Assembly: GCA_017856115.1 (NCBI GenBank)
Contig: JAFMFM010000008.1
Span: 1-52,961, forward strand
Source: Actinomycetota bacterium
GTDB taxonomy: Bacteria > Actinomycetota > Acidimicrobiia > Acidimicrobiales > Ilumatobacteraceae
DNA length: 52,961 bases
Reading direction: 5' to 3'
A program made the position numbers and the translations under genes. Each line of letters opens with the position of its first letter. Position 1 is the stretch's first letter. Shown here in pieces: positions 27,164-31,711 of the stretch. The notes under the pieces are model-generated. The model made no database searches and was not told where the DNA came from. It saw nothing but the letters and a program-made list of their open reading frames with translations.

Positions 27164-28246
27164 TCACACGCCGCGGCGCCCGGTGAGTACCACGGGTTGC
27201 CCTGCAGCCAACTGGCCACATGCAGCGTCGATGTCGGTTCCGCGATTGCGACGGATTGTGGCATTGACCCCGCGGTCGGCGAGGCGATCCGCAAATCGAC
27301 GAACACCGGCTGCGTCGGTTCCGCGGGTTGGAAACCCCGGGGTGGGGTTGAGTGGAATCAGGTTCACGTGCGCCGTCGGCTTCAGCGAAAGCGCCAACTT
27401 GGCAAGTTCAGAGGCGTCACGTGCCGAATCGTTGACACCCGCGATCATCGCCCATTCGAAACTGATCCGGCGATTCTTCACGCGGAGGTAATCGCGACAC
27501 GCCGTCATCAATTCCTCCAGTGGATACCGTTTGTTGATCGGCACCAGGTCGTTGCGTAGCTCATCGCGTGCGGCATGCAACGACACCGCGAGGTTCACCG
27601 GCAGTGGGCGAGTGGCCAACGTGCGGATTCCGGGAACGATGCCTACGGTGGAAATGGTGAGGTGTCGCGCGGAGATGCCCATGTCTGCGTGGAAGCGTTC
27701 GACGGCACCCCACACGGCGGGTTCGTTGGCAAGTGGTTCGCCCATGCCCATGAACACGATGTTGGCCACCCGCTGCTTGCGTTGCTTGGCGTGCCGCGAT
27801 GCGCGCACCACTTGCTCCACGATTTCCCCCACGGTGAGCTGACGGCTGAAGCCGGCCTGGCCGGTTGCGCAGAAGCCGCAGGCCATGGCGCAGCCCGCCT
27901 GCGTGCTCACGCACACCGTGACACGGTCCGCGTAGTGCATGAGCACGGTTTCGATGGGATGGTTGCCGTCGGCGAGACGCCACAGAAACTTGATGGTGTC
28001 GCCTTTGTCGCTCACACTCTCGCGAGCGGGGACGAGCGCCGTAGGCAGTTGTTCGGTTAGTCGTGTCCGCAGCGCCGCCGACAACGTGGTGATGTCGTCG
28101 AGAGCCTTGCATTGCTCGTAGAGGCCGGACCACAACTGCTTGACGCGATACGCCGGCTCACCCGCAAGCACTGCCGCCAGCTGCGCACCGGTGGCGTCGT
28201 AGAGCGAACGCGGTGGGGTGGACGGGCGCTCGGCCTCTTGGTTCAC
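27164..28246 (-). CDS. rlmN: 23S rRNA (adenine2503-C2)-methyltransferase
   Basis: 360 residues. A radical-SAM enzyme that methylates A2503 of 23S rRNA (and A37 of some tRNAs). The cluster cysteines are C119, C123 and C126 in CAMACGFCATG, and the second catalytic cysteine is C343 near the C-terminus (DIDAACGQL). VFMGMGEPLANEPAVW and ISTVGIVPGIRTLA are family signatures. The start is a GTG at 28246 that overlaps the TGA of pepF as GTGA, indicating coupled translation. It is the last gene of the mshD-pepF-rlmN minus-strand group. Confidence 0.95.
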   Translation of the reverse strand: MNQEAERPSTPPRSLYDATGAQLAAVLAGEPAYRVKQLWSGLYEQCKALDDITTLSAALRTRLTEQLPTALVPARESVSDKGDTIKFLWRLADGNHPIETVLMHYADRVTVCVSTQAGCAMACGFCATGQAGFSRQLTVGEIVEQVVRASRHAKQRKQRVANIVFMGMGEPLANEPAVWGAVERFHADMGISARHLTISTVGIVPGIRTLATRPLPVNLAVSLHAARDELRNDLVPINKRYPLEELMTACRDYLRVKNRRISFEWAMIAGVNDSARDASELAKLALSLKPTAHVNLIPLNPTPGFPTRGTDAAGVRRFADRLADRGVNATIRRNRGTDIDAACGQLAAGQPVVLTGRRGV

Positions 28247-30072
28247 GACGTCAAGTGTGGCGCAGCCAGTTGCTCGTAGTCGCGCATGCGTGCTCGCAAC
28301 ACGTCGAGCGATGCGGTCCAGAAGTCTTCCTTCGTGACATCAAGGCCGAATGTTTGGCCGAGTTGCTCGGCGGAGTCCATGCCGGCGCGCGACAACAGGT
28401 CGTCGTAGCCGTTGCGGAATCGCTCTGGATCTCGCTGATATTGCGCGTACAGTCCGAGGCCGAACAGCAATCCGTAGGTGTAGGGCCAGTTGTAGAAGTG
28501 GCTGCCGTAGTAGTGGGGCTTCAACACCCACATGTGGGGGTGAGCGGTGGATTGGTCGATGCCGTCGCCGTACGCGCGGTATTGAGCGTCACCCATCAGT
28601 TCGTTGAGCTCGCTCACTCCGAGCGTGCGACGCTGGCGACGGGCGAACACCTCCGACTCGAACAGGAATCGGCTGTGGATGTCCACCACCACCTGGGCCG
28701 CACCCTGGAGGTCGACATCGAGCAGCGCCAAACGCTCGTCGCCCTGCAAGCGCGAGAGACCTTCCTCTACCACGAGGGTTTCACAGAAGATGCTCGCGGT
28801 TTCGGCGAGCGCCATCGGCAGACTGCGTTGCATTGGAGTGCGGTGCGCCAATTGCGTGTTGTGGTAGGCGTGGCCTAGTTCGTGCGCCGTGGTTTGTGCA
28901 GAATCCACGCTGCCGCTCCAATTGAGTAGCACCAGCGAGCGGTCGTCGACGAACGACATGCAGAAGGCGCCACCCACCTTTCCTTCGCGGGGTTCGGCAT
29001 CGATCCATTTCTCGTCGAGCGAGCGGTCGACGAGGCCGGCGAGACGATCGCTGTAGGCGCTGAATGCACCCCGAACCAATCGGACACCGTCGTCCCACGA
29101 GATGTTGCTCGGTGCAAACGAGAGCGGCGCGAGCAGGTTCCACCACGACACACCGTTCTGGTCGCCGTTCAACCGACCCTTCACTCGCAACCAGCGGCGG
29201 AAGTCGGGGAGCGACGCATGAACCGCCGACTGCATCGCGTCGAACGTGGCGCGGCTCACACTGTTGGCATAGAGCGAAGCATCGAGCGGCGATGCCCAAT
29301 CGCGACGACGGTTCACCGTGTTGGCTTCGCCCTTGATCGCATTCATCGCAGCGGCACATGCGGTGGCGATGGTGGGCCAGGCACGCATCTCGGCTTCGTA
29401 GGCGGCCTTGCGAACCTGCACGTCGGGATTGCTGGCCAACCCGCGAACGGCGGCCATCGGCAGTTCCTTGTCGCCGTCGGGCATCGCAACCACGGTCTTC
29501 AACTGCGACGTGAGGTCACCCTGCAGTCGACCCCACGACGACGAGCCGGTGGTCGACAATTCTGCGTACAGATGTTCCTCGTCTTCGCTCATTTGATGCT
29601 CGGCCCGCGCCTGGAGACGACGCAGCGGCCCGATGTGTTCGCGCGCCTGTTCGCTAAGCGCCGCCAGATCGTCGGCGTTGAGCGACTTCACCCATTCGGC
29701 CAGACGAGCCACCAGTGGCGACATCTTGCTGTCGATCACTTCGAGTTCCGAGAGCAACCCCTGGGCACGTTCATGGCGCGAATCGGTGCTCACCGTGGCG
29801 TACACGTAGGCACCAAGCACATTGTTGGCTTCTGCAACGGCGTTGAATGCGGTGATGACTGCGTCCGCAGCCTCGGCGTCCTGCGTCGTCGGTTTGCGTG
29901 GTGCCATTCCACGAACGTTGTGTTCGTCAAAGAGCGAGTTCAAGCGACCCACGTCGGCCCCCAGCCGCTCCATGGCGTCGGTGAACGAACGCGAATCGAA
30001 CGACTCGTGAACATCGGCCACACTCCAACGGGGCAAGGCGGGTGTTTCGGGAGCGGAAGGTGTTTGGGACAT
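28243..30072 (-). CDS. pepF: Oligoendopeptidase F family (M3) zinc metallopeptidase
   Basis: 609 residues, normal for PepF. It cleaves oligopeptides in the cytoplasm. The zinc motif HELGH is at residues 397-401 (TTAHELGHAYHN), with the third ligand Glu expected in MALAETASIFCETLV just after. GGAFCMSFVDDRSLVLLNWSG upstream and HFYNWPYTYGLLFGLGLYAQY downstream are typical M3B segments. The ATG at 30072 has no ribosome-binding site but a TAGTTT six bases ahead, suggesting it can also be transcribed on its own from the 24-bp gap after mshD. Its stop overlaps the rlmN start. Confidence 0.94.
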   Translation of the reverse strand: MSQTPSAPETPALPRWSVADVHESFDSRSFTDAMERLGADVGRLNSLFDEHNVRGMAPRKPTTQDAEAADAVITAFNAVAEANNVLGAYVYATVSTDSRHERAQGLLSELEVIDSKMSPLVARLAEWVKSLNADDLAALSEQAREHIGPLRRLQARAEHQMSEDEEHLYAELSTTGSSSWGRLQGDLTSQLKTVVAMPDGDKELPMAAVRGLASNPDVQVRKAAYEAEMRAWPTIATACAAAMNAIKGEANTVNRRRDWASPLDASLYANSVSRATFDAMQSAVHASLPDFRRWLRVKGRLNGDQNGVSWWNLLAPLSFAPSNISWDDGVRLVRGAFSAYSDRLAGLVDRSLDEKWIDAEPREGKVGGAFCMSFVDDRSLVLLNWSGSVDSAQTTAHELGHAYHNTQLAHRTPMQRSLPMALAETASIFCETLVVEEGLSRLQGDERLALLDVDLQGAAQVVVDIHSRFLFESEVFARRQRRTLGVSELNELMGDAQYRAYGDGIDQSTAHPHMWVLKPHYYGSHFYNWPYTYGLLFGLGLYAQYQRDPERFRNGYDDLLSRAGMDSAEQLGQTFGLDVTKEDFWTASLDVLRARMRDYEQLAAPHLTS

Positions 30073-30096: not shown

Positions 30097-30885
30097 TTAC
30101 GCCACGACGCCGGAGAAGACGTCGTCTTGGTGTGCCACGCGCATCCCCAACGACGTGTACAGGCCTATCGCCGGGGCGTTGTCACCTGCCACGTACAACA
30201 TGCCGTGACGCAGCCCCTTCCCGGAGAGGTGCGCGAAACCCGCGATGGTCAGCGCACGACCCAGACCCTTCCCGTGGTGTGCAGGGTCGACGCCGATGAC
30301 GTAGATCTCGCCGGCGGGTTCCGAAGGACGATGTTCGTCATGGGCATGGTCATGATGTTGCACACCGGTGTGGTCGTGGTGATGCCCATCGGCATCGTGA
30401 TGATGGTGCACGCCGGCATCGTCGTGGACCTGGGTCCAGCAGAAACCGGCGATACGACCTTCCACTTCATGAATAAGGAATCCGTGCGGGTCGAACCACG
30501 GCGCGGCGAGTCGTTCGGCGAGAACAACGTGGTTCCAATCGCCTTGTTCGGGGTGCCCGGCGAATGCACGAGCGTTCACTTCGAGCCACTCGTCGTTGTC
30601 GAGTCCTGGTCGAAAGGGTCGCGTGGAGAATCCGTCGGGTACGCGGTGTCGTGCATCCAGCGGCAGGTCGCAGCGCATCAATAGCAACGGCACGTCGGGT
30701 GTGAGGTGGTGCCGTTTGGCGCAGGATTTCTCGACGTCGGTCGGGTGGCTTACGAACCAGCGGACGGCTCCGCCACCAGACGAGCGAATGGTGGATATCG
30801 CCGCGTCGAACTCGTCGGGCGACACGTGGTCGTGGCTTCGCAACACCCATCCGCGATTTACTCGCGAGACGTGAACGTGCGACAC
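30097..30885 (-). CDS. mshD: Mycothiol synthase-like GNAT acetyltransferase with a histidine-rich insertion
   Basis: 262 residues. MshD acetylates Cys-GlcN-Ins, the last step of mycothiol biosynthesis. The N-terminal half-domain includes VRWFVSHPTDVE and RCDLPLD. The C-terminal GNAT domain has NARAFAGHPEQGDWN, GFLIHEVEGRIAGFCWTQVH, then GEIYVIGVDPAHHGKGLGRAL with the acetyl-CoA-binding loop, and MLYVAGDNAPAIGLYTSLGM. Between the TQVH strand and GEIYV lies residues 154-185, a stretch with 14 histidines and several aspartates not expected in the family. It would form an exposed metal-binding loop. The start is GTG 30885, six bases after TAGCCT. The protein is shorter than typical MshD (about 300) at the N-terminus. 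pepF follows after 24 bp. Confidence 0.85.
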   Translation of the reverse strand: MSHVHVSRVNRGWVLRSHDHVSPDEFDAAISTIRSSGGGAVRWFVSHPTDVEKSCAKRHHLTPDVPLLLMRCDLPLDARHRVPDGFSTRPFRPGLDNDEWLEVNARAFAGHPEQGDWNHVVLAERLAAPWFDPHGFLIHEVEGRIAGFCWTQVHDDAGVHHHHDADGHHHDHTGVQHHDHAHDEHRPSEPAGEIYVIGVDPAHHGKGLGRALTIAGFAHLSGKGLRHGMLYVAGDNAPAIGLYTSLGMRVAHQDDVFSGVVA

Positions 30886-31018: not shown

Positions 31019-31711
31019 ATGTCAGCGCGCAAGTCAGGAGCAACGTCGAAGCGCACCGTGAAACCCAAGCGCCCCACGAAGGCGGAATTGCCCCAGCATG
31101 CGCGCACCATCCTGCGGGAACTGAAAAAGGATTACCCGATCGCCATCTGCGAACTCACGCACGAGACGCCGTTCCAGCTGTTGGCAGCCACGATTCTTTC
31201 GGCGCAATGCACCGATGCACGCGTCAACATGGTGACACCGAACCTTTTTGCGGCCTACCCAACGGCGGCGACCATGGCCGTCGCGGACGTTTCGCACGTA
31301 GAGGAACTCGTGCGATCAACCGGGTTCTACGGAACGAAGGCGAAGAATCTCATCGGCATGGCCAACGCGGTGATGACCCGATTTGGTGGCGAGGTTCCCA
31401 CCGCAATCGAAGATCTGGTGACACTGCCGGGCGTGGGGAGGAAAACCGCCAACGTGCTGCGCAGCGTTGCCTTCGGACTACCGGGTTTGCCCGTCGACAC
31501 CCACGTGCTGCGGTTGTCGAAGCGACTCGGTATCACCAAGGACGACGACCCCGTGAAGGTGGAGCATCAACTCAACGCACTGCTCCCACCCACGGAGTGG
31601 GGTGAATTCAGCCTGCGCATGATCCTGCACGGTCGACGCATCTGCGACGCGCGCAAACCCAACTGTGGTGAATGTCGGCTGGCCAACGTGTGTCCATCGC
31701 GCAACGTGTAG
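31019..31711 (+). CDS. nth: Endonuclease III
   Basis: 230 residues. A DNA glycosylase/AP lyase that removes oxidised pyrimidines. The helix-hairpin-helix LPGVGRKTANVL holds the catalytic Lys142, and Asp160 is in VDTHVLRLSKRLG. The 4Fe-4S cluster cysteines are C209, C216, C219 and C225 in the classical C-x6-C-x2-C-x5-C spacing. The first 20 residues are a basic extension. Transcribed from a probable leaderless promoter, divergent from mshD with 133 bp between them, which holds the two facing promoters and nothing else recognised. Confidence 0.96.
   Translation: MSARKSGATSKRTVKPKRPTKAELPQHARTILRELKKDYPIAICELTHETPFQLLAATILSAQCTDARVNMVTPNLFAAYPTAATMAVADVSHVEELVRSTGFYGTKAKNLIGMANAVMTRFGGEVPTAIEDLVTLPGVGRKTANVLRSVAFGLPGLPVDTHVLRLSKRLGITKDDDPVKVEHQLNALLPPTEWGEFSLRMILHGRRICDARKPNCGECRLANVCPSRNV

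Follow-up and report, generated by a model that had tools for sequence, protein, structure and literature searches.

Most actinomycetes use mycothiol as their main small thiol, and MshD is the last enzyme of its synthesis. The locus described here, part of a 52,961-nucleotide stretch of DNA (the window), encodes an MshD-like protein with a dense run of histidines. The question it raises is whether this run binds metal beside the active site of a biosynthetic enzyme, or is a repeat that has grown with no such role.

The mshD-like gene and its product

30097-30885, minus strand: mshD-like gene, 262 amino acids, GTG start, a stop being the fourth codon upstream
30667-30885, minus strand: shortened N-terminal GNAT domain, residues 1-73, from the predicted model set against 1ozp and 2c27
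30331-30426, minus strand: histidine-rich loop (residues 154-185), whose 32 residues include 14 His and 7 Asp

The open frame of the gene spans 265 residues and is closed just upstream of the start. The TIGR03448 (MshD) model gives the protein 158.4 bits, narrowly under the curated cut-off of 163.1, and in the whole-genome search it found one stretch, at 90.1 bits; the low score is probably caused by the absence of the N-terminal part together with the inserted loop. By sequence, the closest PDB relatives are the MshD structures 2c27 and 1ozp, and alignment with these places residue 1 of the model at MshD residue 62, so that the protein does not possess two full-length GNAT domains. The N-terminal domain is short genus-wide, all 13 copies having open frames of only 236-266 residues. 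In the solved MshD this domain contributes to substrate binding (PMC4964394). Since it is shortened here and the TIGR03448 cut-off is missed, the activity of the window protein is open to doubt; we infer a putative MshD activity, through which it would make mycothiol.

The genome of the window also yields an MshC-like match of 402 bits (cut-off 485.1) and an MshA-like match of 375.1 (cut-off 462.5). Both models match in 13 of 13 genus genomes, above cut-off in none, and also in 14 of 14 control genomes, above cut-off in one. In the genus genomes G006 (L344) and G003, the MshC-like match extends across a single TGA stop.

The histidine-rich loop

Translation confirms the 14 histidines in residues 154-185 which a sequence-only reading of the window had reported, and their number is far above chance. 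One of them, His154, is the conserved histidine in the WTQVH flank. Histidine makes up 7.4% of the rest of the protein, and the binomial probability of at least 14 in 32 residues is 1.9e-8, or 4e-6 over all positions, figures which reflect composition only and ignore the repeat nature of the stretch. The reading frame and the flanks are whole, as had also been claimed, with CWTQVH before the loop and GEIYVIGVDP and HHGKGLG after it.

A six-frame scan covered 19% of the same genome, 317,611 bases made up of the window and 20 stretches, and revealed no other open frame of at least 100 residues that exceeds 10 His per 32; the runner-up frames look like wrong frames. Heuristic gene calling on the window, the 20 stretches and 80 related loci gave 901 genes. 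At least 6 His in 25 residues occur in 28 of them, and MshD accounts for the top four and for 9 of the 28; the caller is crude, and the genes it overlooked include at least the His-rich mshD genes of L034 and L039. A genome-wide leaning to His tracts was considered, and was not seen in these 318 kb (19% of the genome) or 901 heuristic genes. A HEHGHEP stretch in L353 was inspected and looks like a wrong frame.

Predicted structure

30424-30456, minus strand: strand before the loop in the model, residues 144-154, ending at His154, which is invariant in 41 aligned rows
30334-30414, minus strand: loop residues 158-184, pLDDT under 50
30289-30315, minus strand: predicted strand after the loop, residues 191-199
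30307-30309, minus strand: Glu193, invariant in the 41 aligned rows and aligned with E234 of M. tuberculosis MshD
30259-30279, minus strand: HHGKGLG, residues 203-209, with G205 and G207 nearly invariant and G209 invariant in the 41 rows; by its GNAT motif presumably the acetyl-CoA pyrophosphate-binding segment

AlphaFold2 (41 rows) returned a confident MshD fold outside the loop, with a mean pLDDT of 89.1. Residues 158-184 are read as disordered or flexible, and in the model the loop is the tip of the beta-hairpin carrying the presumed catalytic Glu, its end lying 8 residues before Glu193. E234 has been proposed as the general base of the M. tuberculosis enzyme (PMC4964394). The protein thus retains the catalytic Glu and the CoA-binding segment of an MshD, and model and flanks together support the earlier placing of the loop between two GNAT strands, ahead of the acetyl-CoA segment. 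The inserted segment is His-rich and at the surface, and is predicted to be flexible.

The model best matches 1ozp (Z 21.3, 222 aligned, rmsd 4.1), followed by 2c27 (Z 21.2, 227 aligned, rmsd 3.6); Foldseek was also run. The next structure, 7q3a (Z 19.4), is another tandem GNAT, and the absence of other folds from the comparison counts as no evidence. M. tuberculosis MshD (Rv0819; 1ozp, 1p0h, 2c27) is accordingly the best match in both sequence and fold, at 33% identity, and shares the WTKVH...GEVYV hairpin, the catalytic Glu and the C-terminal GNAT domain. It differs in two respects: its N-terminal GNAT domain is full, whereas the window protein lacks about 61 residues, and only six residues (2c27 numbering; three displayed) separate the His of WTKVH from GEVYV, leaving no room for a His cluster. 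The one solved MshD lacks the loop, and the enzyme that has been studied is therefore not the whole family. The model of L097, a full-length relative with a whole N-terminal domain, has a loop at the same place, likewise of low confidence.

Loops within the genus

The mshD gene is present in 12 of 13 genus genomes as 13 copies, one genome having two. After the conserved His, the loop of the window protein has 37 residues with 13 His; the other copies have (length/His) 37/11, 38/16, 27/10, 26/7, 26/6, 26/7, 22/6, 19/3, 14/4, 14/4, 6/0 and 6/0. Eleven of the 13 thus carry a loop with 3-16 His, and two have 6 residues and no His.

The genome with two copies is G003, where L005 and L031, on different contigs, encode proteins that share 66% and 65% identity with that of the window; this is either a second copy or a mixture of strains. 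The record holding L038 and L040 is titled Bifidobacterium breve, yet its neighbouring genes are 76-89% identical to those of the genus, and it is surely a mislabelled MAG. The other named genus records are MAGs that bear the titles Ilumatobacteraceae, Acidimicrobiia or Actinomycetota, and isolate names such as Lanier suggest a lake habitat.

Loops in wider relatives

Loop parsing was applied to 340 loci, of which 319 were parsed and 21 were not, giving 289 distinct loops; L032 and L033, second pieces of L012 and L011, had been excluded beforehand. A family search matched 183 of 221 genomes at 1e-10. The same family and order, sampled outside the genus, supplied 43 distinct loops (17, 15 and 11 from three draws); these have 4-18 residues and at most 2 His, none reaching 4. 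In a draw from the phylum, 117 of 396 genomes matched at 1e-20 and 80 were above the cut-off; 70 loci were taken, and none of the 62 distinct loops parsed has at least 4 His, the maximum being 3. Since the loop is short in these two sets and in two genus copies, MshD does not need it.

The class draw around G439 gave a different picture. This group is the class Actinomycetes, since it contains the genome of L097 (titled Acidothermaceae). At 1e-30 the L097 protein finds a match in 313 of its 394 genomes. At least 4 His occur in 42 of 103 distinct parsed loops, and 82 of the 103 have HxH; the sample is the best 110 of 313 ranked against a His-rich query, and is therefore biased; taken as a floor, the count is 42 of 313. 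The L097 genome itself was kept under L097, outside the 103. The extremes (length/His) are L311 with 63/19, L246 and L248 with 41/14 each, L252 with 37/13, L236 with 35/12 and L097 with 38/11. Among 64 distinct loops from 68 named non-genus loci, at least 4 His are found only in L082, L097, L098 and L104. Histidine forms 22.4% of 43 long Actinomycetes loops against 4.3% of the rest of the proteins; in the same loops, obtained with an earlier loop parser than the final counts, G, D, P, E and I are raised and V, L, F, W, R and K are low.

The His-rich MshDs of L097, L104, L246, L248 and L311 resemble the window protein in having, at the same site and within the same flanks, a long loop rich in His, Asp, Glu and Gly. 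Unlike it, they have frames of 330-372 residues, with room for the whole N-terminal domain, and lie on the other side of the tree. The first residue of their loops is G and the last ones are often HGH[DE]PI, a pattern found in many Actinomycetes loops.

These counts alter what the sequence-only reading had made of the loop. It had taken the loop for an oddity of the window protein, a view overturned by the genus copies and the Actinomycetes cases; nor is the loop absent from all relatives. That family members normally lack it holds nearby (0 of 43) and fails for large parts of Actinomycetes (42 of 103). Across Acidimicrobiia, the spread takes in most genus copies (11 of 13) and none of the loops parsed from the rest of the family and order.

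Other loops at this site take several forms. L334 has a His-free loop of 47 residues which is a direct repeat (SSGPSFASPSSRLAEPL), that is, another repeat-built insert. In families f58, f65 and f72, a loop of 11-15 residues with 2-3 His follows WTKWH or WTKYH (L175, L177-L182, L184-L186, L188-L191), many being of the type GHESDEVPAHEPV; L195, L198 and L203 of f72 have none. Small genomes (1.2-2.2 Mb) belonging to family f117 encode a compact loop with the pattern H.H.H...H.H, 18-19 residues long and with 5-7 His (L271, L272, L277, L297, L329).

Gene order and phylogeny

27164-28246, minus strand: radical SAM protein gene by Pfam and gene order, rlmN-like
28243-30072, minus strand: pepF, M3-family oligopeptidase F-like by Pfam and gene order, downstream neighbour
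31019-31711, plus strand: nth, endonuclease III-like by Pfam and gene order, upstream divergent neighbour

At the 12 named genus loci, nth lies beside mshD in all 12, pepF in 11, L040 ending before it is reached, and rlmN in 10; at 68 other named loci the numbers are 51 for nth, 24 for rlmN and 4 for pepF. None of the three is found at L082, L097, L098 or L104, the last two being on short contigs. One scan of viral contigs found no relatives. A plasmid collection gave 3 matches, each below 60% identity, in actinobacterial records of 0.22-11.9 Mb.

A FastTree phylogeny of 289 rows, built without the loop columns, requires 21 changes of the state "at least 4 His." A smaller tree of 95 rows (IQ-TREE, quick) was built from the 13 genus copies, 38 other Acidimicrobiia, and a random draw of 22 Actinomycetes with and 22 without 4 His. 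In it the genus forms a single clade (SH-aLRT 99) nested among the Acidimicrobiia rows (98), with Actinomycetes on one side (98), and 12 changes are required. Five of the 38 rows labelled Acidimicrobiia are titled otherwise (L046 as Acidobacteriota; L052, L054, L068 and L100 as wider actinobacterial) but group there. By its place in the tree and its gene order the window gene is an Acidimicrobiia mshD ortholog, and horizontal gain of the loop gene from Actinomycetes was rejected on the same two grounds; the presence of nth beside mshD in the genus and at most other named loci speaks against transfer.

Because the genus lies inside Acidimicrobiia, apart from the His-rich Actinomycetes, the simplest reading, and the one indicated, is that the loop arose twice, in the genus and in Actinomycetes. 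It may instead be ancient, the genus having retained it while other Acidimicrobiia lost it on several occasions. The tree is unrooted, and gains and losses within Actinomycetes are therefore inseparable.

Growth of the loop and retention of histidine

30343-30423, no strand assigned: degenerate 24-bp tandem repeat with an 8-amino-acid unit, 3.4 copies, 68% matches

The loop grows by tandem duplication. Besides the degenerate repeat in the window, L003 has four near-identical 8-residue units and L004 a shorter array. One account of such growth is neutral: a tolerant hairpin tip in which slippage or unequal exchange multiplied a short seed containing a few His codons, the resulting His content being incidental and without a metal role. 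We consider this possible, although on balance unlikely. The repeats themselves agree with it, as do the range of loop lengths within one genus (6-38) and the long His-poor inserts at the same site, L334 among them. Against it stand the occurrence of His-rich loops at a single position in two classes, and the loops of L236, L246, L248, L252, L256 and L311, all of one genus of family f125, which differ strongly in sequence and range from 31 to 63 residues yet have 9-19 His each. The window loop uses mixed His codons, CAC 5 times and CAT 8 times in a 35-residue piece, which suggests age and also argues against the neutral account.

Whether histidine outlasts its neighbours depends in part on the method of counting, and all P values are rough, the columns being dependent on each other. 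In 26 equal-length pairs sharing no row, His columns are identical in 85 of 105 cases versus 56 of 108 for Asp and Glu (P 7e-6); with the last 6 residues removed, the figures are 40 of 58 versus 36 of 78 (P 0.009). Counted per residue, His is retained in 162 of 182 cases versus 400 of 604 in 25 pairs with at least 40% loop likeness, and in 170 of 205 versus 408 of 747 in 29 pairs taken without the likeness filter, again to the disadvantage of the neutral account. When columns with any His are compared with columns without His in the 26 pairs, the retention signal is gone, at 85 of 105 versus 218 of 302 (P 0.09), or 40 of 58 versus 128 of 193 (P 0.75) without the last 6 residues. Three pairs within the genus are uninformative, His columns giving 21 of 24 versus 45 of 53. 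That His is not extra conserved by this column count or in the genus pairs counts in favour of neutral expansion.

The codons offer a further view. Differences at the His codons of the loop are synonymous in 13 cases and replacements in 20, against 16 and 52 in the flanks; since 8 of the 9 point changes of a His codon replace His, these loop codons look constrained. Better keeping of His than of the neighbouring loop residues is thus indicated by the alignments, though not firmly, and selection and slippage both seem to act on the loop. The possibility, raised from the outset, that this is merely a slippage-prone repeat is right in that tandem duplication builds the loop, and falls short in that His outlasts other residues between equal-length relatives, apart from the column count and the genus pairs above.

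Metal binding and other roles

We lean slightly toward a flexible metal-binding loop, set on the hairpin with the presumed catalytic Glu of an MshD-type GNAT enzyme. A flexible loop of His and Asp has the usual look of a metal-binding segment, and flexible HxH-rich segments are found in metal proteins such as zinc transporters, HypB, SlyD and UreE. In those proteins metal handling is the task, whereas the host here is a thiol acetyltransferase. The loop would bind a divalent transition metal through its HxH and HHxH groups and Asp, most likely zinc, with copper or nickel possible. A point against this reading is that long loops can be poor in His: 72 of the 289 distinct loops have at least 16 residues, and 48 of these have at least 4 His, but 17, at the same site, have fewer than 3.

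A comparable segment is described in PA4063, a periplasmic zinc protein of Pseudomonas aeruginosa, where a His-rich stretch between strands beta3 and beta4 is disordered in the zinc-free state and gains partial order when zinc is present (PMC8561739). PA4063 has another fold and no relevant cavity, and its zinc binding has been measured, whereas that of the window loop is only predicted. Bacillithiol binds zinc as N2S2 (PMC5120989), and the substrate of MshD has a free cysteinyl amine which the enzyme acetylates (PMC4964394). As this substrate has a free amine like bacillithiol, a local metal acceptor beside the active site would be sensible; the loop may keep metal off the substrate thiol and amine, or alternatively may slow the enzyme when metal is high. 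For Frankia, mycothiol is named in the handling of copper, selenium and arsenic, and no such loop is mentioned in the part of that source available (PMC4531530). A His-rich MshD loop was found nowhere among the matches listed from titles and abstract beginnings of the openly licensed literature. The recurrence of the loop hints at a link between thiol synthesis and metals, and a fast-changing, recurrent His loop on the last mycothiol enzyme makes that link concrete and testable.

A more specific proposal, which we regard as unlikely, is that the loop is a metal-stripping arm that removes zinc from the substrate, or captures it upon acetylation, and so ties mycothiol output to free zinc. With its free cysteinyl amine and thiol, the MshD substrate should chelate zinc tightly, and the acetylated product more weakly. 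A metal-bound amine cannot be acetylated, and turnover on metal-loaded substrate would have to remove the ion; separate lineages would have met this same need by growing the same loop.

It is less probable still that charge rather than metal is what matters, a His-rich loop with a pKa near 6-7 covering CoA and the substrate like a lid whose action is electrostatic or depends on pH. The loop does adjoin the base on the predicted model, and the kinetics of MshD point to a base pKa of 6.6-7.0 (PMC4964394), but these come from a short-loop enzyme, and the raised Asp and Glu and low Arg and Lys of the long loops suit metal sites better than a cationic lid. A bulk reserve of zinc or nickel with no effect on the enzyme is very improbable: although as many as 19 His are packed into 63 residues (L311), a biosynthetic enzyme is usually too scarce for a store, a place beside the active site is unneeded for one, and none of the four window neighbours is identified by Pfam as a metal transporter or regulator, a result that weighs against the metal-binding reading as well. 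M3 peptidases such as that encoded by pepF are zinc enzymes, and an M3 peptidase gene is present also at L041 and L045, which lack the loop.
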